Shown here one piece after another: positions 31,186 to 61,517 of a stretch of 64,000 bases of DNA (position 1 is the first letter of the stretch; each line of letters begins with the position of its first letter). The notes beneath the pieces were generated by a model. The model did no database searches. It had not been told where the DNA came from and saw only the letters and a program-made list of their open reading frames with translations. The stretch comes from Impatiens glandulifera (Eukaryota; Streptophyta; Magnoliopsida; Ericales; Balsaminaceae). The stretch covers positions 6,097,389-6,161,388 of the forward strand of contig NC_061864.1 in NCBI RefSeq assembly GCF_907164915.1, given 5' to 3'. The position numbers and the translations under genes were made by a program.

Positions 31186-40645
<9,460 letters not shown>

Positions 40646-41742: not shown

Positions 41743-44270
41743 ATGTTTGAGGTGAGCAGAAGAAGCAACTTGCTTTCTGTATCTTCAATCGTTCTTCTTC
41801 TTCTCCTTCTCCTTTTGGTACTAAATTGCCGTGCCAGTTCATGCGGAGATATTCACAACATCAGCTTTCCTTTCCGATTAGGAGGAGGAGGAGGAGGAGG
41901 CAATAAACGATGCTTATTTGACGACTATTTCTCTCTGTCCTGCGAGGAGGATAATCGGACGTATCTCTCCTTACACTCCGTCAAATACCACGTTCAGTCC
42001 ATCAATTACGGCAATAGCTCCATCCGTCTCACCCCTGTCGGCCTAGATACGACCAATTGTTCATCTCTCCCTCTCTACTCTGTGAACCTAAATAGTTTTA
42101 ATTTATACTCTCTTCCTATTAGCATGTATTACATTAAATGGCCTTTCCCTCGGGTATATTCCGTCTCTTCTACATGGCCCACACCTGTGACATTCTTAAG
42201 CTGTGAATCTCCACTTCCTGCAAAATCATCTAGATACTATATTGACGTTTCCGCTTCTTGTAATCTATCATCATCTTCGTTCAGATCCGGAACATCTTTG
42301 TACGCTGTAGTGGGCAATATAACATTGATGAACATTGAGGATTCCTGTACGGTGGAAACCACGGGATTGACCTCTGATCCCAACTTATTAGCTGGTAGTA
42401 GAGTTAGGAGTAATCTTTCCTACCAAGATGTACACAACGCTTTGGCCTTGGGTTTTGATACTTTTTGGCAATTTAAAATCTGTGGAGAATGTGAGAAAAG
42501 GGCCTATTGCCTGGGTGGTGGTGATGCGTCTAGCCTGTGCCAAAAAGGGTGTTTTGAACGGTCAGGTATCATGAGTACTGAATACAACTTCATTTGTGTG
42601 TGATTGATATCATCATGGAGGTTTGCTTCTTCCTAACAAGTCTCGTTTAATCATATCAAAATATTTTTACTCAAGGAACCTTCTGGCTAATATTTGATGC
42701 TACTATTAGAAGAACGTCTATCTCCGTCCTTAGCTTTTTCTTGGTAGAGCCGCTAATAGGTGTGTAATTCTTCAATCTGCTTATTTGTGTTATTTGATAT
42801 ATAACTACGTACTGGGTTTGCATGCTCTTCCTAAGTCTAACCACACTAATTTATAAAATTTCAGATGAATATTTGAGTTGGACTCGGGACAACCAAGTCT
42901 TCTCACTTATTGTGGGTAAGTAGAGTACGTAGTTTCTCTTTCATTAAACCTGCAGGTTGTACTTGTACTTGTTTATTCATTATCATGGTCTAATATCGCA
43001 ACAGATTGCTCGGTCTTTCTTCTGCTAATCACAGGTAAGAGTAAGACTTTATTAATTTCCTAATTTGAAAATATAGGTGAAGATATCATAAACTGTTACT
43101 TTGTTTGGATGGTATTGTCTTACTCCAGTTTTTGATCAACTATACACAGTTTTGTGGTTCCTTTTAAGAATTCTTTGCATGCCATGCATCTTTGGCTTTC
43201 TGATCTACAAATTCAAGAGGAGACATTTCTCAACCTTCGACAATATCGAAGGTTTCTTGAGGGGTGAGAACAATTTCATACCTATAAGGTACTCTTTCTG
43301 GGAGATTAGGAAGATGACTAATGGGTTTCGAGATAAGCTGGGGGAAGGAGGATACGGTTGTGTATACAAAGGAACTCTTCGAAGTGGAACTCTCGTTGCA
43401 GTAAAGATGCTGAGCAAAGCTAAAGCTGATGGACAAGAATTCATTAATGAAGTCTCTACCTTAGGAAGAATTCATCATTTGAATGTGGTTCAACTGATTG
43501 GATATTGTGCCGAGAGACATCAACGTGCTCTGGTTTATGACTTCATGCCCAACGGTTCTCTTGAGAAGTATATATTCTCCAAAGAGGATAATCCTTCCTT
43601 GAGTTACGACCAACTCTTTGAAATTTCCCTTGGAGTGGCTCGCGGAATAGAGTACTTGCATCGAGGCTGCGATATGCAAATCTTGCATTTCGACATCAAG
43701 CCCCATAACATTCTCCTTGGCGAGGATTTTACTCCAAAGGTTTCTGACTTTGGTCTTGCAAAACTTTATCCCGCACAAGACAGTATTGTGCCTCTAACTG
43801 CAGTTCGAGGAACCATGGGTTACATCGCCCCAGAGCTATTCTACAGAAATATCGGAGGGCTTTCTTATAAAGCAGATGTTTATAGTTTCGGGATGTTGTT
43901 GATGGAAATGGCTAGTAAGAGAAAGAACTGGAGTTCCTCGGTCAGTCACTCGAGCCAAATTTACTACCCTTCTTGGGTTAACAAACAATTCAGTGATGGA
44001 ATAGATGTTGAAATGGGAGACATGACTAATGAGGAGGCAAAGATTGTGCGTAAGATGATGTTGGTGGCTTTATGGTGCATTCAAATGAAACCTAGCGATC
44101 GACCTACCATGCATAAGGTTGTGGAGATGCTTGAAGGTGATGCAGAGGTTATAGAGATTCCTCCAAAACCATTTTTGTTTGGTGAAGATATGGTATTAGA
44201 GAATAATAATATCTTTAATATATCTGGTGCTGGTGTGGATGCTATTACTATGGATTTCAGTGCTCGTTAA
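41743..44270 (+). CDS. Receptor-like kinase A, LRK10L / rust resistance kinase Lr10-like
   Basis: Plasma-membrane receptor kinase with a galacturonan-binding-type (GUB_WAK) ectodomain. Family members act in defence or stress signalling; the ligand here is unknown. Exons: 41743-42565, 42676-42759, 42865-42915, 43005-43034, 43150-44270, with consistent phases and 702 aa in total. A Leu-rich signal peptide (about 1-30) precedes [13 protein letters not shown], and the ectodomain is Cys-rich with many N-glycosylation sequons. Three short exons and the start of the last encode the juxtamembrane and membrane segments, ending at [14 protein letters not shown]. The kinase has the glycine loop GEGGYG, Lys in VAVKML, DFG and APE. 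The catalytic loop reads HFDIKPHN, so it is a non-RD kinase that keeps the catalytic Asp. It is the first of a three-gene direct array, and its 3' UTR is similar to that of disrupted gene C. Confidence 0.88.
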
Positions 44271-45082: not shown

Positions 45083-47451
45083 ATGTCTGAAGGCAGCAGA
45101 ATCATCATCCTACTTGTTGGATCTTCAACCCTTGTCCTTCTTTCCTTACTAAAATGCAACGCCAGTTCTTGCGGAGGAGATATGCATAACATCACCTTCC
45201 CCTTCAAATTAAAGGACGTCAGTAAACAACAATGCTTATTTGACAATTTCTTCGCTCTCTCCTGCGAGAACAACACAACATACATCTCCTTATACTCCGG
45301 TAAATACCACGTTCACTCCATCAATTACATCAACCATTCCATTCGTCTCTCCCCTGTCGGCATAGATCATAAATCCAACTCATGTTCATCTCTCCTCTAC
45401 TCTGAAAACCTCAGAACTACCCATCTTCACGATCATTACAGTTTGTTATCTCAATTTATAAGCTCTGCACAAGTAATATTCTTGACCTGCAAATCTCCAG
45501 TAAAATCTCGACCCTACTACATAGAAATTCCCACTTCCTGCAATCTATCATTGTCTAGGGGGGGACAACAAGTGTACGCTATGGTCGCCACTGCAAACGT
45601 AGTGGGTGATATTGAAGATTCTTGTACGGTGGAAACAATCGCTTTTACCTCTGATCCGAAATTGGTAGATGGAATCAAAAGACACGGTCTGATTTCTTAC
45701 CAAGATATTCATAACAGTTTGGCTTATGGGTTTGATCTCTCTTGGGGATACCGGTTCTGTGGAGATTGTGAGAGAAGGGCTTTGTGTATGGGTGATGATC
45801 CAAATCTTTGCTCGAATGAAGGTTGCTGGAATCGAGGAGTCTTATTGAGTATGTTTCTTCAACCGTTCTGAAACTGAATTGGTTTATATATTTTTCAGTT
45901 TACTGATAAACAATTTGATCATGTTAATTTTGCAGTATACTCGCCGGCAATCTTTGCACCTATTGATAAAATGATTCATCATGTCCTAGTCTTTATACAG
46001 GGAGAGAAGCTACATGGTGAGTAGAAGCTTTCTGTGATTTTTTTGCTCTTCCTAAAACTAATCATAGACTTTTCTGCAGCTGAATTCTTGCATTGGGCAA
46101 CCAACAACTTAATCTATTCACTTATTGTGAGTAAGTGGAGTCATTCATCTTGAGTTTTATTTTTTTTAATCTTTGGGAGATATCTAATTCTATGCAATGG
46201 TTATATCCCTACAGATACCCTGGTCTTCATCGTACGAATCATAAGTAAGACTTCATTTCTTTCGATCATGCATGCATTGCTATTTTTGATATTTTCTTAC
46301 TTCAATTTCGTTTAATGTGTGCAGTTATATGGTTCCTTTTAAGATTTTGTTGTATGCCATGCACATTTGGCTTTTTGATCTTCAAATTTAAGAGGAGGCA
46401 TTTCTCAACGTTTGATAATATTGAAGGTTTCTTGAGGGGTGAGAACAATTTGTTACCTATAAGGTACTCTTATTGGGAGATTAGGAAGATGACTAATGTG
46501 TTTCGGGATAAACTGGGGGAAGGAGGATACGGTTCTGTATACAAAGGAACTCTTCGTAGTGGAACACTCGTTGCTGTAAAGATGTTGACCAAAGCTAAAT
46601 CGGATGGACAAGAATTCATGAATGAAGTATCTACCCTAGGAAGAATTCATCATGTCAATGTGGTTCGATTGGTTGGATATTGTGCAGAAAGGTATCAACG
46701 TGCTCTTGTTTATGAATTCATGCCCAACGGATCACTTGAGAAGTATATATTCTCGAAAGAAGAAAATGTGTCATTGACTAATGACCAAATTTTCACAATT
46801 GCCTTAGGAGTGGCCCGTGGAATCGAGTATCTGCATCGAGGTTGCGACATGCAAATCTTGCATTTCGATATCAAACCACACAACATCCTTCTTGATCATG
46901 ATTTCACCCCCAAGATTTCAGACTTTGGGCTTGCGAAACTTTACCCTGCACAACATAGTATTGTGCCCCTAACTGCAATAAGAGGAACCATGGGCTACAT
47001 TGCACCCGAACTATTCTATAGAAATATCGGAGGGGTATCGTATAAAGCAGATGTATATAGTTTTGGTATGTTGTTGATGGAAATGGCTGGTAAAAGGAAG
47101 AACTGGAGTTCATCTGTTGATAGATCAAGCCAAATCTTCTTTCCTTGTTGGGTTTACAACCAAGTTGTTAGTGTTCATGGTCCTATTGAAATGGGAGACC
47201 AAATTATAAACAAGGATGAAGAGATTGTACGCAAGATAATGTTGGTGGCTTTGTGGTGTATTCAAATGAAGCCGAGTGATCGACCTCCCATGCACAAGGT
47301 TGTGGAAATACTTGAAGGCAATATCGAGCACATCGAGATTCCTCCTAGATCTTTTTTGTTCGATCGGGACATGTCAACCCCAAACAATATGTATGACAAT
47401 CTATCGGGTGCTGGTGTGGATGCCATAACTATGGATTTAAGTGCACGATGA
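45083..47451 (+). CDS. Receptor-like kinase B, LRK10L / rust resistance kinase Lr10-like
   Basis: Tandem paralogue of gene A with the same five-exon structure: 45083-45848, 45936-46016, 46080-46130, 46215-46244, 46325-47451; phases agree and give 684 aa. The signal peptide (about 1-28) is followed by ASSCGG and MHNITFPF, the GUB_WAK signature. Short middle exons encode the stalk and membrane region, and the last exon starts in the hydrophobic segment [10 protein letters not shown]. The kinase has [20 protein letters not shown] (non-RD), SDFGLAK and IAPE, and ends in [14 protein letters not shown] as in genes A and C. All key kinase residues are present, so it should be active. Expected at the plasma membrane as a receptor; the ligand is unknown. 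Confidence 0.88.
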
Positions 47452-49049
47452 TAATGTTTTCATACTAATGGATTGATTTTTGGTGTAAACAATTATTATC
47501 TTTAAGTATTGAAGATCTACAAATATTGGGATATTGCATAATACAGAAAAGACATTAATTTACTTTAAATCATTTGTATGAATGGATATTCCTGATTAAC
47601 TATAGCATTTGGTTTATGTTTAGTCTGCTGTATTCATTTGTTTAATAAATATGACATTTGTGGCCTTATTTTCCTTACCTAAATAGATTTATCCAATATA
47701 ATATTGTTAACTAATCAATCTAGTAGTTATTGTACCTCAATATTTTATTAAAAAAGATAATAATCAACTATATTTAGATAATTATTAATAAAATAAGACT
47801 ATTTATTATATCCCATTTTTAAAATGCTTTTATTTTATTACATAAATATTATATTTTTTTATCATTAAATCAACTAATCAGTTTAAATCAATAAAATTTA
47901 AAATAATTTGATTTTATTAAAATTGAATAATTAATTATTTTTTTTCAAATAGTGATGTTTAATAGAGGCCTCTATTGTTGGGCTACCCTGACATATAAAC
48001 TCTAAGGAGGTTGTTCCTTCTGATGTGGGTGACAAAGTTTGTTGTCTCGGAATATTATCCACCGCCCGGTTCGTCTCATTCTCACTGAAATATTTATTTT
48101 ATATATCAAATTTATTTAAAATAAGTAATTATACGTATCAAATAAAAAGACAAATTAGTCTATGCATTTTAAAATTGCGTTGCAGCGAACATTGAGACTC
48201 AAAATTTAGCAATATTAATGACTTTTGAAATATAGTATATATGTTTTCATTTTATATAAATTATTAATCTATGATTTTTTAGGGATTGAAAATTATAAAA
48301 GTATCTCCCGAAAAAATATTATTTTATAATTTTATCGAATTTTTCAATTTTTTACATTTACCTAAGTCGGGACCTGGACAAATTTATTAATTTATTAAAT
48401 ATTAATTTAAATAGTCAAATTTATGTTTAAGATATCAAATCATTTTTTATAGATCATTATTGAGTGATGAAGTTAACTTTTTAAATAAATTATGTTATCA
48501 AAAGTTTGTGAAATTTTGAAGTGGTTGTATTCCAATAAAGTTAATATGTATTTATTGACTCTGTTTGTTATTTGAATAGTGATTAATAGATTGTCTGGTA
48601 GGTTCTAAATAAAATATATTTGACAAACTACATAAAAAAAGAACAAACCAATCTACATCAATCCATGGCCACATTATTATCATAGCTAGGTAGAAACCAA
48701 AGACAAAGACTTATTGACTTATTGACTTTAAGGCCTCGTTTGATGAAAAGGGTTTTTTTGGAATAAAATTCAATTTTTATCCTAAAATTCAAACATCTTA
48801 TCAACCATTAAATCAAATAATTTTATCATTTAAATACCAAAATTACTCTCTAATTTTATCCTCTCTTTAAACCATCATTCTCTCACATACACCGTACCTT
48901 TAAAGTCAAAGGACAAATTAATTTTTAAATTTTAAAAACCAATTTTTCCTACTTTTTATCAAACAAAGTTTTTTTTGGATAATACCCAGATAAAATAAAA
49001 AATATATATATTTCCTCAAACAGGGCCTATTGGAAAATTTGATCACTTA
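47452..49049. other. Spacer after receptor kinase B
   Basis: AT-rich non-coding DNA. The left part should include the 3' UTR of gene B. A MITE (48732-49027) and a Helitron-like element (from 49050) occupy the right end almost back to back. No gene is seen. Confidence 0.6.
48732..49027 (+). mobile_element. MITE family 1, copy 2
   Basis: A 296-bp non-coding element with terminal inverted repeats: GGCCTCGTTTGA at the left and TCAAACAGGGCC at the right (reverse complement GGCCCTGTTTGA). The interior matches the reverse complement of 21030-21294. The termini resemble Tourist-like or hAT-like MITEs. Flanks TTTAA and TATTG do not give a clean target duplication, so the superfamily is uncertain. Confidence 0.75.
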
Positions 49050-50345
49050 TCTATATATATATAATGATGCTTAATTTTTAAAGTGTCCGGATTGCCGGGT
49101 CGAAAGCTGTGGTTAATTTGGATACTTGGGTCGGATTGTGGGTTGACCCGTTTTTAAATTTAAAACGGTTAAAAATAAAATTAAAAATGTTAGAGGTATG
49201 TTTCGAACTTGCAACCTAACAAAACAAGTACAACTCTTTAACCAACTAGGCTACAAAGACTTTATATTTTAAATTCAACACCAAATTTGATAAACGCGGG
49301 ACGTTTTAATATTAATATAAGTTCAACTTTTTAACTAACTAATCTATATATATATAATGATGCTTAATTTTTAAAATGTCCGGATTGCCGGGTCGAAAGC
49401 TGTGGTTAATTTGGATACTTGGGTCGGATTGTGGGTTGACCCGTTTTTAAATTTAAAACGGTTAAAAATAAAATTAAAAATGCTAGAGGTATGTTTCGAA
49501 CTTGCAACCTAACAAAACAAGTACAACTCTTTAACCAACTAGGCTACAAAGACTTTATATTTTAAATTCAACACCAAATTTGATAAACGCGGGACGTTTT
49601 AATATTAATATAAGTTCAACTTTTTAACTAACTAATCTATATATATATATAATGATGCTTAATTTTTAAAGTGTCCGGATTGCCGGGTCGAGAGATGTGG
49701 TTAATTTGGATATTTGGGTCGGATTGTGGGTTGACCCGTTTTTAAATTTAAAACGGTTAAAAATAAAATTGAAAATGCTAGAGATATGTTTCGAACTTGC
49801 AACCTAACAAAACAAGTACAACTCTTTAACCAACTAGGCTACAAAGACTTTACATTTTAAATTCAACACCAAATTTGATAAACGCGGGACGTTTTAATAT
49901 TAATATAAGTTCAACTTTTTAAGTAACTAATCTCTATATATATAATGATGCTTAATTTTTAAAGTGTCCGGATTGCCAGGTCGAGAGTTGTGGTTAATTT
50001 GGATACTTGGTCGGATTGTGGGTTGACCCGTTTTTAAATTTAAAACGGTTAAAAATAAAATTAAAAATGCTAGAGGTATGTTTCGAACTTGCAACCTAAC
50101 AAAAACAAGTACAACTCTTTAACCAACTAAGCTACAAAGACTTTATATTATAAAATCAACACCAAATTTGATAAACGCGGGACGTTTTAATATTAATATA
50201 AGTTCAACTTTTTAACTAACTAATATATAATGATGTTGAGTAAATGAATACTTGTGTCGGATTGTGAGTTGACTCACCCATAAACTTAAAACGGTTAAAA
50301 ATAAAATAAAAAATGTTATCCGTAATTTTTTTTCACGATTTTTAT
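49050..50345 (+). repeat. Tandem repeat of about 293 bp, four copies plus a partial
   Basis: The anchor AATGATG recurs at 49063, 49356, 49651, 49944 and 50229 (spacings 293, 295, 293, 285). Units share GTGTCCGGATTGCC, GTCGGATTGTGGGTTGACCC, AAACGGTTAAAAATAAAAT and AAACGCGGGACGTTTTAATA with only scattered substitutions. The last fragment is shorter and more diverged, and carries the element's 3' end. On the minus strand each full unit contains TAGCCTAGTTGG and AGTTCGAAA, spaced like the A and B boxes of a tRNA gene. Confidence 0.9.
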
Positions 50346-50381: not shown

Positions 50382-51788
50382 TAATCTTTAATTTCCCTAC
50401 TGGACTGAATGAATGAGTTCATCATATTACCTTTAGTAGGATATTTATTCCTTTTACTCATATCATTCTCTGTCATGTTTGATTGCATTTCTTCTGTTAA
50501 TGGATCTTCAACCTTTCTCATTCTCATCATCATCATCCTCTCCGTTCCAAAATGTGATTCTAGTTCTTCCTGCGGCCATATTCACAATATCAGCTTCCCA
50601 TTCCAATTGATCAAGAACAAGCCTCATCACAAACATTGCTTGGACGAATTTTTCTCACTCTCCTGCGAGAATAACCAGACATACATCTCTTTATCCTCCG
50701 GAAAATACCACGTTCGGTCCATTAACTACGCCAACCATTCCATCCGTCTATCCCCTGTCGGCATAGATCATAACACTCACTGTTCCACTTTCCTTAACTA
50801 CTCTCTACACCGCCAAAAACTCGGATTGTTCGATCTTTTTGGCTTTTATTACTTCAAAGACAAATGGCCCACAATGGTAAGCTTCTTGACCTGTGAAATT
50901 CCTGTCAAATCTGGAATACCCACCTACGTAAACGTTTCCGATTCGTGTACTTCTTTGTCGAAATCCGATAGATTTGTCTATGCTCTTCTGGGTAATAATA
51001 ATACAACATTGGGGGAAATTGAGGATTCTTGTTCGGTGAAAAGCGTTGATCTTTTTACTTCTTATAGTGAATTAGCTACAATTAAAAGTAATATTTCCTA
51101 CAAAGATATACACAAAGCTTTGGCCTTTGGCTTTGATGTTTCTTGGCGATTTTACCTTTGTATGGTTTGTAAGAAAAGGGCTTCGTGCTTGGGAGTCGCT
51201 AAAAGCCTTTGCCAGGAATCTTGTGCTTTGGGTGCGTAAATTTACTGTTTCTTTCGTTCATTCATTCATGGAATTTTATAGTATAATTTGATTGACTAAT
51301 TCATTTGCTATGCAATTAATTAATTAATTGCAGATAGATTGATCATTGGTTTGGGAAGCGGTAAGTATGATTTTCTTCTATACACTTAACTTGGTTTCTG
51401 TTTAGCTGTTTTACAGATACAGATATTAATAATCCTTTAATTTGTCCATGCAGTTGGATATGCTGGTTTATTGGTGATTATCATAGGTAACAAATCCTGG
51501 AAACATCGATTTTGTTTTTAGAACATTTAGTGATCTGATCTCTTACTTAAAGTATGAAATTACACAGTTGTATGGTTCCTTTTAAGAATTTGTTGCATGC
51601 CATGCATCTTCGGCTTTCTGATCTACACATTCAAGAGGAGACATTTGTCGTCCTTCCAAATTATCGAAGGCTTCTTGAAGGGTCAGAACAATTTGATTCC
51701 AATAAGGTACTCCTATTGGGAGATTAAGAAGATGACTAAAAGATTTCAATACAAGTTAGGGGAAGGAGGATTCGGTTCTGTATACAAA

Positions 51789-51793
51789 GGAAC
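51789..51793 (+). repeat. Target site duplication GGAAC, left copy
   Basis: GGAAC precedes the LTR start here and is repeated exactly after the other LTR at 56499-56503. A 5-bp duplication is what copia integrase makes. Confidence 0.95.
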
Positions 51794-52107
51794 TGTTAGA
51801 ATCCAAACCACAATAAAAGAGAATAAAAGCGATAAAGAAGAACGAACACCAAGATTACGTGGAAAACCCTTTACGGGTGAAAAATCACGGGCAGAAGAGA
51901 AGATTTCACTATAACGAAGATTGTACAGTATTTTGGTGGACAACGTAAAACTGTTCTTAAAGAGAAAAGACGGCCGCAACCTCTATATATTGTTTAACCC
52001 TAGAATATGATGTAAATTAAAAGGGGCAAACCCATTAAGACTACAGGTCCATATAGTGCGGGCAAAGCCCGCTGACCCAACAAGAATTCGGGCCACAAAC
52101 TCTAACA
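51794..52107 (-). repeat. Copia 3' LTR (in element orientation)
   Basis: 314 bp, TGTTAG...CTAACA termini, identical to 56185-56498 except at 51885. The sequence just outside on the internal side, read on the minus strand, is CAAGGTGGAGAT, a purine-rich polypurine-tract candidate at 52108-52119. Confidence 0.95.
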
Positions 52108-52191
52108 ATCTCCACCTTGAAACGAATTCCAATCTTTGATAGCATAACCACAAAATCAAACCTCTTCCACCAAAGCCCCTAAGGGCATAAC

Positions 52192-55100
52192 TCAGCAATG
52201 AAGACCAACCAGGTTCAAGCAATGCTCAAACTTGGTAATAGGAAGTGACTTGGTCATCATATCTGCAGGATTATTGTGTGTACTCACCTTGCTCACAACA
52301 ATATCACCACGAGCAACCACATCACGCACAAAATGATACCGTACATCAATGTGCTTAGTCCTCTCGTGAAACATCTGATCCTTTGTCAGAAAAATAGCAC
52401 TCTGGCTATCACAAAATATTGTAGAAATCTGCAAATCATTACTAAGTTCGCCAAACAAGCCTTTCATCCAAATTGCTTCTTTGCAAGCTTCTGTAATCGC
52501 CATGTACTCTGCCTCTGTAGTAGACAAAGAAACTGTAGCCTGCAACATAGCCTTCCAGCTAATAGCGCAACCACCAACACAAAAAATGTAACCAGACAAT
52601 GATCTTCTCTTATCAAGATCTCCAGCGTAATCTGAATCAACGTAACCGACAACTCCATCTCTACTTTTCCCAAACTGTAAACAAACATCAGTAGAACCAC
52701 ATAAGTATCTGAGAATCCACTGAACTGCTTTCCAATGTTCCTTACCAGGGTTTGCCATATATCTACTAACAACACTAACTGCATATGCTAAGTCAGGTCG
52801 TGAACAAACCATAGCATACATAAGGGAGCCAACGGCACTAGAGTATGGCACTCGCGACATATAATCATCATCACTATCTGAATGTGGTGACAAAGAAGAC
52901 GAAAGTCTAAAATGAGCAGCTAGTGGAGTACTTACCGGCTTGGCACTTTGCATGTTAAACCTACTAAGGACTTTCTCGATGTATCTCTTTTGACTTATGT
53001 ATAATTTACCAGCCGGTCGATCTCTAAGAATCTCCATTCCAAGCATCTTCTTTGTTGCACCTAAATCTTTCATCTCAAACTCGCTACTCAACTGTGCTTT
53101 CACCTTTCTGACCTCTCTCTGATCTTTAGCGGCAATTAACATATCGTCAACATACAACAACAGGTAAACGAACGACCCATCATTACATACTTTAAAGTAG
53201 ACACAACTATCGTAATTGCTCCTCCTGAAATCATGAGTGGTCATAAATGTATCAAATCTCTTGTACCATTGCCTAGGTGACTGTTTCAAACCATAAAGAG
53301 ACTTTTTCAGCTGACATACATAGTCCTCCTTTCCTAAGGCTACGAATCCCTCTGGTTGCTGCATGTAGATGTCTTCCTCAAGTTCTCCGTGTAAGAATGC
53401 AGTTTTTACATCTAACTGCTCAAGCTCAAGATCGTGGTATGCTACAATACCTAGTAAAGCCCGAATAGAACTATGTTTCACAACTGGAGAAAATACATCA
53501 GTAAAATCAACACCTGGAGTTTGACTATATCCTTTTGCAACAAGCCTGGCTTTATACCTGGCTTCTTCAACTCCCATCGTACCTTCCTTTCTCTTATACA
53601 CCCATTTGCAGCGAACAACCTTCTTGCTCTTTGGTAACTTCACTAGATCCCATGTAGCGTTCTTGTGAAGCGATTCTATCTCTTCCTGCATAGCAATCAT
53701 CCACATACCAGAGTTTTCGCAGGTAATCGCCTCTGAATATGTCGCAGGTTCTTCTTCTGAATCAATCTCTTCAGCCACAGTTAATGCATACGCAACTAAA
53801 TCAGCCTCTGCATATCTTTGAGGGCGTCTAATTTCTCTACGAGGCCTATTTTTAGCAATTGAATATTGTGGAGGTGCTTCTGAGGAGTTAGCACCATCCA
53901 TAGAAACTGGAATAGGCCCTGGAATTTGTTCTGGTGTAGGTTTCAACCCAATCTCAAGCTCCACCTCAATACTTGACTTCTGATGATTTCCCTCGGAGGG
54001 AGTTGAAGATGGAGACCCCTGAAGCATGCTAGTCTCATCAAAAACAACATCTCTACTGATGACGACTTTACTAGTCTCAGGACACCACAACTTATATCCC
54101 TTCACACCTTGCTTGAACCCTATGAACACACACTTCACCGAACGAGGCTCTAACTTCCCATTATCCACATGAGCATACGCAGGACATCCGAAAATTTTTA
54201 AATCAGAATAACTAGCAGGAGAACCAGTCCATACCTCTTGTGGAGTTTTCTTATCAATAGCAGTCGAAGGAGAGCGATTAACGAGATGACATGCATACGC
54301 AGCGGTCTCAGCCCAAAACGACATCGGTAGCCCAGCATTAAGTCGCATACAACGCACCTTCTCCATCAAAGTCCTATTCATCCTCTCTGCAACTCCATTC
54401 TGTTGAGGATTATGTCGAACTGTATGATGCCTCACAATACCTTCAGTTCTACATAAAGTATTAAACTCATTAGAACAAAACTCCAAACCATTATCAGTTC
54501 GGAGATGCTTCACTTGCCTCCCTGTCTGCTTCTCAATCATTAACTTCCACTCTTTAAAGGTAGAAAACACGTCACTCTTTTGTTTCAAAAAGAATGTCCA
54601 AACCTTCCTGGAGAAATCATCTATAATAGTCAACATATAGAATGCACCACCTTTAGATGGTACTCTAGAAGGCCCCCACAAATCAGAATGAATGTAGTCT
54701 AGTGTCCCCTTCGTATTATGAATACCAGCCGAGAACCTAACTCTTTTCTGTTTACCAAAAACGCAGTGTTCACAAAACTTCAGCTTTGTAATACCCTGCA
54801 CATCAAGAAGCCCTCTCTTGTTCAATTCGACCATGCCATTCTCACTCATGTGACCTAGACGCATGTGCCATAATCTTGTTGCATCAGAATCAGACAAAGA
54901 CGAACTAGCAACAGCAACATCACCTGTAATCGTAGAGCCTTGCAGAACATATAAATTGGCAGTTTTCTTGAGTCCCTTCATCACAACAAGAGACCCCTTG
55001 CTGACCTTCACAACTCCACCTTCACCAGTGTATTTGTACCCTTTAGAATCAAGAATACTCAATGAGATCAGATTTCTCTTCATGTCAGGAACGTGTCTTA

Positions 55101-56142
55101 CATCACCAAGTGTTCGAATAGTGCCATCAAACATCTTAACTCTAACCGTACCAATACCAGCAATTCTGCAAGATGCATTATTACCCATCACAACGGTACC
55201 TCTAGAGACCACTTCATATGTAGAGAACCAGTCCCGATTAGGACACATATGAAACGTGCATCCAGAATCAAGAATCCATTCGTCGCTCTGTTTCGAATCA
55301 ATATCAGACGTAACGAGGAGTTCTCCATCATTGTACTTTTCAGCAACATCAGCTTCGCCATATTTCTCTGGTTGATTGCTCTTATGATCCTCACCAGCCC
55401 TCTTATTTTTATTCTGTAATTTATAACACTCAACAACAATATGACCTTTCTTCTTGCAGTACCTACACGTCTTATCTCTGTTCTTGGATTTTGACCTGCC
55501 ACGGTTATTGTTGCTAGAATACCTCTCCTGCTGTCTGCCTCGTGCAACAAGGCCTTCAGCCATATTATCTAAACCAACAAGTTTATGCATCTTTTCTTTC
55601 GAGAAGAGTGCATCATAAACCTCATCTAGAGTCAAAGTCTCACGACTATAGAGAATGGTATCTCTAAAATTAGCATACGAAGGAGGTAGTGAACACAATA
55701 ATATGAGCCCTAAATCTTCTTCATCGTACTTAACCTCCATAGATTCCAAATCAGAGACTATTTCTTTAAAAACAGTTAAATGATTTTCTAAAGACGTACC
55801 GTCAGACATACGTTGGGAGTACAAGCGTTGCTTCAAGTGTAGCTTGTTAGTCAGCGTTTTCGTCATGCATAATTGCTCCAATCTTAGCCAGAGTGCAGCA
55901 GCTGTTTTTTCCTTCAAACAGTCTTGAAGAATCTGATTCGACAGATGCAGATAAATCTGCGATAGAGCCTTACGATCTGCTCGTTGCTTCTCTTCATCAA
56001 TCCACGAAGACGGCATCTTGTCAGCGCCATATAGCGCATCTTCCAGATCCATCTGTGCCAAAATAGCTCGCATCTTCACTTGCCATAACGCAAATCTGGT
56101 GTTACGATCCAGCAGCGGAATGTCGTATTTCATCGTGGTCAT
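52192..56142 (-). CDS. Copia gag-pol polyprotein
   Basis: A single uninterrupted 1316-aa frame. I start it at the ATG at 56142, just inside the primer binding site; the same frame is open further upstream into the LTR, but that part is unlikely to be translated. Domains in order: gag with a CCHC zinc knuckle (C-x2-C-x4-H-x4-C, about 55441-55475); aspartic protease with DSG (about 55255-55280); integrase with an HHCC-type N-terminal region and a core beginning near HSDLWGP (about 54670-54692); reverse transcriptase with YVDD (about 53140-53156); and RNase H at the C terminus. Integrase before reverse transcriptase is the copia order. I saw no stop or frameshift, which is unusual for a plant element and fits recent insertion. 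Confidence 0.95.
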
Positions 56143-56167
56143 GACCAAAAAATAAAACAAACAAATT

Positions 56168-56181
56168 TGGCTCTGATACCA
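56168..56181 (-). other. Primer binding site, initiator tRNA-Met type
   Basis: On the minus strand this reads TGGTATCAGAGCCA, starting 3 bases after the 5' LTR. It is the complement of the 3' end of plant initiator tRNA-Met and the commonest copia primer site. Confidence 0.93.
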
Positions 56182-56184
56182 ATT

Positions 56185-56498
56185 TGTTAGAATCCAAACC
56201 ACAATAAAAGAGAATAAAAGCGATAAAGAAGAACGAACACCAAGATTACGTGGAAAACCCTTTACGGGTGAAAAACCACGGGCAGAAGAGAAGATTTCAC
56301 TATAACGAAGATTGTACAGTATTTTGGTGGACAACGTAAAACTGTTCTTAAAGAGAAAAGACGGCCGCAACCTCTATATATTGTTTAACCCTAGAATATG
56401 ATGTAAATTAAAAGGGGCAAACCCATTAAGACTACAGGTCCATATAGTGCGGGCAAAGCCCGCTGACCCAACAAGAATTCGGGCCACAAACTCTAACA
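56185..56498 (-). repeat. Copia 5' LTR (in element orientation)
   Basis: 314 bp with TGTTAG...CTAACA ends. It contains a TATATAG word on the minus strand at about 56376-56382 that could serve as its TATA box. It differs from the other LTR only at 56276. Confidence 0.95.
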
Positions 56499-56503
56499 GG
56501 AAC
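56499..56503 (+). repeat. Target site duplication GGAAC, right copy
   Basis: An exact repeat of 51789-51793 immediately after the LTR; the interrupted kinase frame continues from here. Confidence 0.95.
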
Positions 56504-57842
56504 TCTTCGTAGTGGATCTATAGTGGCTATAAAGATGTTGAACAAAGCTAAATCGGATGGGCAAGACTTTATGAATGAAGTCTCTACCCTAGGAAGGATT
56601 CATCATGTTAACGTGGTTCGACTTATTGGATATTGTGCAGAAAGCTCTAAACGCGCTCTAGTTTATGACTTCATGCCCAACGGGTCTCTTGAGAAGTACA
56701 TATTCTCCAAAGAAATGGAAACACCATTGACTAATGACCAAATTTTCAGGATTTCCCTTGGAGTGGCTCGCGGAATTGAGTACTTGCATCGAGGCTGTGA
56801 TATGCAAATCTTGCATTTTGACATCAAGCCTCATAACATTCTTCTTGATGAGGATTTTACTCCAAAGGTTTCTGATTTTGGGCTTGCAAAACTTTATCCC
56901 GCACAAGACAATATTGTGACTCTAACTGCAGCACGAGGAACCATGGGCTACATTGCCCCAGAACTATTCTATAGAAATATTGGAGGGATTTCCTATAAAT
57001 CAGATGTTTATAGTTTTGGGATGATGCTGATGGAAATGGCCAGTAATAGAAAGAACTGGAGTTCTTCTGTCAGTCACTCGAGTCAAATTTATTACCCTTC
57101 TTGGATTTACAAACAATTAAGTGATGGAACAGATGTTGAATTGGGAAACATGACTAATGAGGAGGCAAAGATTGTGCGAAAGATGATGCTGGTGGCTTTA
57201 TGGTGCATTCAAATGAAACCTAGCGATCGACCTCCCATGCATAGGGTTGTGGAGATGCTTGAAGGTGATATAGAGCTTATCGAAATTCCTCCAAAACCAT
57301 TTTTGTTTGGTGAAAATATGGAATTAGAGAATAATAATATCCTTAATCTGTCTGGTGCTGGCGTGGATGCTATTACTATGGAATTCAGTGCTCGTTAATG
57401 TTTCTTACATAAGATAAAATTACTTAATTACATGTAATTTGTGATGATAAATGTTTCTTACATAAAACAAAATATTGCTTGCATCTAATATCAGTGTTGT
57501 AGTAGTGTATCTAAACAAAACCCGCAAGCGGGAACTTCACTCATTAATTATTTCCACGTCTTTTTCCTGTGTTTTTTTTTTATTTTATAATTACTTGAAT
57601 GATAGGTCAAGTTTGGAGTATATTGAAAATATGAAAAGTCTCTCCTATAAAGCGGAACCATGACTCAAATTTTGTCAAAATTTTCTGGCTCCATATCATT
57701 TCTCTTTTAATATTTAAAAAATTACTTTGATATTAGCTTAAAACCATAGAATAGGTAATATAAATAGATATATGTTCAAGGAGATTGGTTTTTATTTGGC
57801 TAGTCTAATGTTTGAGTTCTTTCTCTATGGTAGAAAAATTTA

Positions 57843-58939: not shown

Positions 58940-60835
58940 TTATTCAACTATAACTTCCAATTGGCTATTGAAAGAAAGTCTATCGGGATTTGTTGTCACA
59001 AAAGGATTAGAAGGTATGGTAAGTGAGCTCCCTCCGTTTCCCTCCAGCATTTGTACCACAACATTCATCGATGGTCGATCGATTGGATACCACTGGATGC
59101 ACCAAAGTCCCACGATAGCCAGTTTTCTCACTATCACGTCATCTCCTTCATCCATAACTTGGACTCCAACGAGCCCTTCGCCGCCATCCAATTGGTTGTA
59201 AATCCACTCAGGATAATATATTCGGTCCACATCATCATTCTTCTTCTCCTTCCCTCCCACCATCCCAAGTAATAACATCCCAAAACTATACACATCAGAT
59301 TTGTGAGAAACACTGCCAAAGTTTCTAGAGAACACTTCCGGAGCAATGTATCCAATTGTGCCTCTTGCTGTGGTCATTGAAACAGCGCCTTGTTCTTTCG
59401 AGCATAGCTTTGCTTGTCCAAAATCAGAGATCTTAGGGATTAAGTTACTGTCCAAGAGAACGTTATGGGGCTTTATGTCGAAGTGAACTATGCGTTGCTC
59501 GCATCCCTGGTGAAGGTATTCAATTCCTTTGGCTATGCCAAGAGCAATACTCTCTAGATTCTTCCATCCTAGCGACGATTTCTCCGCATCAGACAATATG
59601 TACTTTTCAAGCGAATCATTTGAAAAGAACTCGTAGATAAGAGCTCTTCTGAATCCATCGGCACAATACCCAACTAGCCTCACGATGTTGACATGGTGGA
59701 TTTTACCCATGATTCCTACCTCATTGATAAACTCTTGTCCATTTCCTTTCGAACTGTTTAGGATCTTAACAGCAACATGAATATCGTTGGAAAGGGTTCC
59801 TTTAAAAACAGTTCCATATGCTCCTTCCCCTACTTTCTCCTTAAAATCACCTGTAATTTTCTTGATATCAGCATAAGAATACCTTGCAGGCCTGAGAGCT
59901 CTATAAGCTTCAAGAAATTTCTCAATCTTGGCTTCATCTTTTTTCTTTTGTTTCCGTATATAACACACAACACCAGTTGATGTCAACAGAATAAATAATC
60001 CAACAACGATCAACGCTATCACTACACTCTTGTGTACACCTGCAGAGTAGAAGAAGAAGATGAAGATGGCTTAGATCATTATACACATATTTTCAATAAT
60101 GTTTTCAAATAATTCACCTTGTTGGTCGGTTGGTACTTCAATTTGGCCATAACATTCGGTTCCATTGCCGCTGGCAATGTTATTTCTGAATCTGCAATAT
60201 TTGCCCTGTGCTTCACAGTCTCCACATATACGATGAGGCCACTGTAACCTAATATCATAGTCTTGAACAAGTACATAAGATGGAACTCTTGAAATGTTAT
60301 ACATCTTCTTGCAAGACAAAATTGGGGCCGAATCGATGCCAGTAAACGAGTCAATGGCGTAAATTCTGCGAGCAGGGTCATGAGGATCATCGAGGCAGGT
60401 TTCGATGAGACGACGCTGAGAATCATTATCTTTTGGTAAGCAGCTGAATATGGTGAAGTCATCAAGTCGAGAATTAGTTCCGGTGAAATTGAAATGGGAG
60501 GCAGATAGGTTAAGGAATCGTATTTGCGTAAAGCAACCGCCGTGTTCCTGAATATGTATGAACTGGGTTGAATAATCGATCTTGGTGATGTGAACTTGAA
60601 CAGAAACAGGAAGGAGAAGCATGGCGTCGTTGCTGTCGGAACAGGAAACATCGAAACCGGGATAGCCGCAGTGTTGGGGCTGTCGTTCCTTTAATCGAAA
60701 TGGAAATCGAATTATTGGTCCATTCTTACTGCACTGAATGGGAATGCAGTCATTATGTGCGAGGGTTGATTGCAGCAGGGACAGGAAAACGATAATTCCG
60801 AGGAAGAAGGACGTTCTTCCCTGGTTGAGCGCCAT
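58940..60835 (-). CDS. Receptor-like kinase D, LRK10L-type, minus strand
   Basis: Two exons on the minus strand: 60835-60118 and 60039-58940, with phases agreeing and 605 aa in total. I start at the ATG at 60835 (MALNQGR) because it opens a typical signal peptide ending near LAHN; an in-frame ATG at 60886 adds a polar leader. The Cys-rich ectodomain (CSKNGPIIRFPFRL, then CGDCEAQGKYC) is of GUB_WAK/WAK-associated type. The membrane helix VIALIVVGLFILLTSTGVVC is followed by a basic stop-transfer. The kinase has [21 protein letters not shown] (non-RD), SDFGQAK and IAPE, with all catalytic residues present. It differs clearly from A-C (two exons instead of about five, different C terminus), so it is an older relative. 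Likely a plasma-membrane receptor kinase; the ligand is unknown. Confidence 0.88.
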
Positions 60836-61517
60836 TAATTCAAATTTCCGATTAGTGGATGGATGATGATTCCGGCATTGGATCATGTAGCTAGCTAGCT
60901 AGCTAGATAAGAGAAGAGAAACAGAGTTCCAAATTAGTGGTAATGGTTTGGTCAACTGTCAACTGCGGGCTTCCACGAAGGACAGTCTTTTTTTTTTTTC
61001 TTCTTTTTTCAATTTTGTTTATTTATTATTATTATTTTAATACAAACATTGTTTATTTTTATTTTTATTGAATCCATGTTAATCAAATATTACTTTTAAA
61101 ATTCAAATTACTAAATTCCACGAAAGTTATGAATTGTTATTTTGATCAAATTATAGTCGATTTCAATTATTAGTTTAATAATATTTTAATAATATAGATA
61201 ATAAATATTATAATTGTATTTATTAAAAAAATAAACTTAGAACTAAAATTATAATTCTCATTAAAATTATGAATTTTTATTTTTATAAAAATTATAAAAT
61301 TATAATTCAATTTCAACTAATAAGTTTAAAAAAACTTTAATAAATACAATTTTAATATATATTATCTATATTATTAAAATATTATTTTTAGATAATTTAT
61401 TAGGTTAACTTGTGTTTTTATTATATTAATTAGGTTAAGAAAAAATTATAAATTTCACATGTTAACTTTTTAATTAATTAACCTTCTAAATTCAAAAATT
61501 AAAATAGAAGTCTATTG

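Follow-up and report, generated by a model that had tools for sequence, protein, structure and literature searches.

The last exon of a receptor kinase gene of the LRK10L type in Impatiens glandulifera was found to contain a complete LTR retrotransposon of the Ty1/copia type, which lies between the sequences for the glycine loop and the catalytic lysine of the kinase domain. The window, as we call the whole 64-kb stretch of DNA that was analysed, represents the filled state of this receptor locus. The uninterrupted product is identical to a protein on record for the same species (P0001), so that both states of one locus may be recorded.

The interrupted receptor kinase gene

The host gene spans positions 50475-57398 on the plus strand. 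Its three introns all have GT-AG borders, and the last exon (51568-57398) is split by the element. The features of the gene and of the insertion site are the following:

50475-51231, plus strand: host exon 1, signal region and GUB_WAK_bind ectodomain (Pfam PF13947, 1.2e-14); open frame, GT donor
51334-51360, plus strand: host exon 2, 27 nt, AG/GT borders; required for the exact match to P0001
51454-51486, plus strand: host exon 3, 33 nt, AG/GT borders; the hydrophobic, putative membrane segment begins here (by eye)
51568-51793, plus strand: host exon 4, left part; end of the putative membrane segment, juxtamembrane region and glycine loop; open frame
51789-51793, plus strand: target-site duplication GGAAC, left copy
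51794-51914, plus strand: read-through tail; the host frame continues into the LTR and reaches a stop there after about 40 codons, giving a product of 387 aa in total
56499-56503, plus strand: target-site duplication GGAAC, right copy
56504-57398, plus strand: host exon 4, right part; catalytic Lys, HFD, DFG, C-terminal lobe and stop

Pfam searches with the pieces assigned a GUB_WAK_bind ectodomain and a kinase domain to the gene, and its named relatives are of the LRK10L type. The kinase match (Pkinase, 9.6e-44) was obtained with the ORF 56448-57395, which covers the right part of exon 4. A hydrophobic stretch, recognized by eye in the alignment of the host protein, represents a putative membrane segment. 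The motif GEGGFGSV of the glycine loop is encoded at 51759-51782 and the lysine of the VAIK motif at 56532-56534 (both counted by hand), and the element is located between them, which confirms the position given in the first-pass annotation. In the right part of exon 4 the first in-frame methionine follows only after the catalytic lysine.

Joining of the flanks of the host gene results in 1938 bases with 645 codons in frame before a single, terminal stop, and no stop or frameshift was detected in these 1938 coding bases. The kinase gene is therefore otherwise open, as had been claimed. The absence of other lesions had been connected with the survival of a functional allele, but the observation is of little value in this respect, because few disabling changes would be expected in such a short time even in a dead gene.

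Structure and age of the retrotransposon

The element occupies 4705 bp on the minus strand (51794-56498) and comprises:

51794-52107, minus strand: 3' LTR, 314 bp
52192-56142, minus strand: gag-pol ORF from the first ATG at 56142 to the stop; open frame, motifs and Pfam domains
56185-56498, minus strand: 5' LTR, 314 bp; TATATA starting at base 119 (element orientation)

The LTRs are direct repeats with TG...CA ends, both starting with TGTTAG and ending with CTAACA, and they differ by a single mismatch in 314 positions (T at 51885 versus C at 56276; 99.7% identity). An LTR pair of this identity, flanked by a duplication and enclosing a complete coding region, is far beyond chance. In element orientation, on the minus strand, the 5' LTR is followed by AATTGGTATCAGAGCC, which we take to contain a copia-type primer-binding site. 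The site of primer-binding type adjoining the LTR, TGGTATCAGAGCC, was judged by eye and is presumably of the initiator-Met type with respect to the tRNA. A purine-rich tract just before the 3' LTR was also identified by eye.

The coding frame on the minus strand is open from 56373 down to the stop at 52192. It contains the Pfam domains Retrotran_gag_2, Pol_BBD, gag_pre-integrs, rve, SH3_retrovirus and RVT_2. The Pfam search of the element matched no protease family and no RNase H family, and these two activities are represented by short motifs only (LDSG in the case of the protease). Short motifs in the same frame also cover the zinc knuckle, the integrase and the reverse transcriptase (YVDD). 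Since the integrase (rve) precedes the reverse transcriptase (RVT_2) in the single pol frame, an order with which the motifs agree, the element was classified as Ty1/copia. Taken together, the LTRs, the duplication and the domains confirmed to the base the earlier description of a complete 4705-bp copia element with a perfect 5-bp duplication and LTRs differing at 1 of 314 positions. The element is full-length and probably autonomous. Further copies or solo LTRs of it were not detected within the 64-kb window (blastn, E 1e-3), and a search with Rfam at gathering scores gave no match across the window.

A comparison with plant Ty1/copia elements revealed no essential difference. Shared features are the LTRs, the 5-bp duplication, the presumed initiator-Met-type primer-binding site and the arrangement of gag, integrase and reverse transcriptase in one frame; protease and RNase H were recognized in the element by motif only. 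Among the 120 listed of 7561 matches, the reverse transcriptase region of the element was closest to P0123 (95%) and P0126 (85%). P0123 is a copia polyprotein encoded on a metagenome contig of 4312 bp, and it is 95.5% identical over 782 aa when compared with the element. The element is an ordinary member of the copia family, and the mechanism and class of the insertion are ordinary as well.

LTR dating makes use of substitution rates of 1.3e-8 and 7e-9. Based on one difference in 314 sites, the former rate results in an insertion age of 123,000 years (95% Poisson interval 3,100-682,000) and the latter in 228,000 years (95% Poisson interval 5,800-1,270,000), and both values indicate no more than the order of magnitude. 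The single LTR difference supports a recent insertion, as proposed before; the age of about 100,000 years named at that time holds as an order of magnitude and not as a figure, as the interval spans 220-fold.

We propose a single integration event, in which the Ty1/copia element entered, in antisense orientation, the last exon of one LRK10L-type gene within a tandem cluster. The duplication would have been left by a staggered cut of 5 bp at GGAAC, for which the integrase of the element was presumably responsible. As judged from the sequence, the ATP-binding glycine loop would thereby have been parted from the catalytic lysine, and neither half would be expected to encode a working kinase. We regard the insertion and this effect on the kinase as very probable, a grading which does not include the existence of an empty allele.

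An uninterrupted protein from the same species

Using the joined host protein as a query, 7968 candidates were scored, 7925 matches were obtained and 120 of them were listed. The best match among those listed was P0001 (NCBI/UniRef, I. glandulifera, 645 aa), which carries the NCBI name 'rust resistance kinase Lr10-like [Impatiens glandulifera]'. This protein is equivalent to the flanks joined with one GGAAC, and 645 of 645 residues are identical. Two additional I. glandulifera proteins, P0006 (702 aa) and P0008 (651 aa), match the window exactly via GT-AG introns.

Eight equivalent single junctions in the window yield P0001, since the shared sequence comprises the duplication and one further base on either side. 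Each of these junctions excises 4710 bp, corresponding to the element and one GGAAC. Canonical splicing across the element was rejected as the source of P0001: none of the eight junctions is of the GT-AG, GC-AG or AT-AC type. Splicing via one internal microexon was rejected as well. A scan which combined GT/GC donors at 51660-51796 with AG acceptors at 56490-56560, and which allowed a single microexon with no more than 160 bases missing, tested 33 donor-acceptor pairs, and P0001 was restored by none of them. As no canonical splicing route was found, P0001 would originate from an empty haplotype, from transcripts of such a haplotype, or from a predictor bridging the element.

In our judgement P0001 rather reflects an empty allele, either sequenced or transcribed, and on the basis of this protein we consider it likely that an uninterrupted allele still exists in I. 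glandulifera. It is nevertheless quite conceivable that P0001 is an annotation artefact, produced by a predictor which was guided by homologous proteins and took the element together with one copy of the duplication for an intron. Under these circumstances P0001 would carry no information on empty alleles, and the insertion might have reached fixation. P0001, P0006 and P0008 show zero residue differences from the window, and this exact identity of three neighbouring proteins fits a single assembly, counts against a different haplotype and favors the artefact. The contigs carrying the three proteins are also equal in length (65,853,558 bp), which fits one assembly as well. A low diversity of British and mainland European I. 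glandulifera, as reported in one study (PMC7335094), would also explain the perfect identity, provided that the plants used for sequencing were from these populations. Plant annotations by NCBI Gnomon do hold minor non-canonical introns, with a mean of 0.09% of sites, but such introns are rare and are absent from some of these annotations (PMC6310983). Further points against an artefact are the precision of the excised piece, which is exact to the base with no canonical border at any of the eight equivalent junctions, and the name of P0001, which as far as listed (the end of the name is not shown) bears no low-quality mark. Thus, the surviving empty allele considered in the first-pass annotation has gained indirect support from a protein equal to the joined flanks, and an artefact would explain this protein too.

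Condition of the host gene before the insertion

That the host gene had already lost its function, in which case the insertion would have been without consequence, appears unlikely to us. The 1938 coding bases without stop or frameshift and the presence of the kinase motifs argue against a prior loss, and so does the dN/dS of the kinase exon, which was 0.24 (dS 0.35) and 0.16 (dS 0.82) in comparison with two paralogues from the window. The changes on the individual lineages, which were assigned by parsimony using the third gene to root the comparison as outgroup, point in the other direction. In the kinase exon of the interrupted gene 35 replacement and 32 silent changes were counted, compared to 21 and 24 in the sister paralogue, which amounts to a slight excess of replacements. 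Ahead of the putative membrane segment, the linker of the interrupted gene is shorter than that of its paralogues in the window, which would be consistent with a prior loss, but short linkers are also present in some relatives. At 177 near-invariant columns P0001 deviates 7 times, and the 24 relatives, which we picked from the matches listed, deviate 1 to 16 times. Overall, these comparisons speak for a host gene that was presumably under constraint until recently, and function is not proven thereby.

A possible truncated product and comparison with known receptors

The statement that the insertion destroys the receptor kinase is valid for the kinase and goes too far for the gene as a whole, from which a 387-aa product with ectodomain and putative membrane segment could still be made. 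This product, an ectodomain anchored in the membrane and extended by about 40 residues from the LTR, might act as a receptor-like protein or as a decoy, and we consider this improbable. The host frame is open to 51914, and since the final exon of the gene model contains the stop, no exon junction would follow downstream. A precedent for a shortened receptor is available from rice, where Xa21D is truncated by Retrofit, likewise a copia-type element within a receptor kinase gene; its product consists of the extracellular domain only, and partial resistance is reported for it (PMC3036077). On the other hand, the transcript, with its greatly extended 3' region, may be subject to degradation. A search with the 387-aa product gave 531 matches, and the 120 that were listed included no truncated I. 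glandulifera form. The interrupted balsam gene also differs from Xa21D in that the putative membrane segment and the glycine loop stay in frame.

With the LRK10L family the balsam copy has the GUB_WAK_bind ectodomain, the hydrophobic segment, the HFD kinase and the location in a tandem cluster in common. Unlike the members of this family, it is split by a retrotransposon.

Possible relation to rust and possible use as a marker

According to a paper on Coffea arabica, the name LRK10L originates from a wheat kinase that was identified at a locus for resistance to leaf rust. As described in the same paper, genes of this type have been connected with the response to rust in wheat as well as in coffee, and in Coffea arabica an LRK10L cluster is located within an introgressed region of rust-resistant lines (PMC11018527). 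In the case of the balsam gene the name, LRK10L or Lr10-like, is annotation only and is no evidence for a function in rust response. British populations of I. glandulifera vary in their susceptibility to released rust strains, according to the study cited above (PMC7335094). The combination of this variation with the link between LRK10L genes and rust makes the locus a fair candidate for typing host populations, and no more than that.

Young and intact copia insertions in genes are a known type of event, and the value of the present one lies in a candidate presence/absence marker in a weed. The insertion may still vary between I. glandulifera plants, and as both states are possibly on record, a three-primer PCR provides a direct test for presence or absence. 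A much more far-reaching scenario would combine a segregating insertion, an empty allele encoding a working LRK10L receptor, a filled allele encoding a kinase-less anchored ectodomain, and a different response of the two to the rust used for biocontrol; we regard this combination as highly improbable. In the literature we found no paper joining transposon insertion polymorphism, receptor-like kinase, copia, resistance gene and exon.

Neighbourhood of the interrupted gene

Four LRK10L-type genes are clustered in the window at 41743-44270, 45083-47451, 50475-57398 and 58940-60898, three of them on the plus and one on the minus strand; for the last gene the ORF bounds are given. P0006 and P0008 correspond exactly to the genes at 41743-44270 and 45083-47451. 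The model of P0008 begins at 45182, and the window encodes 33 additional in-frame residues (45083-45181) with a signal-like stretch.

An alignment of the kinase exon of the first paralogue (43150-44270) with the joined kinase exon of the interrupted gene (51568-51793 and 56504-57398) showed 89-94% identity in columns 500-1100 and 78-88% in columns 0-500. Between the same two genes, dS is about 1.0 in the ectodomain versus 0.35 in the kinase exon. This mosaic similarity suggests that gene conversion or unequal exchange may have taken place. Directly upstream of the interrupted gene, a unit of 293 bp is repeated four times head-to-tail with 96% matches (49045-50229). The region 35322-39609 contains coding exons of a glutamate synthase, with the NAD-binding domain identified by Pfam in the last ORF scanned.
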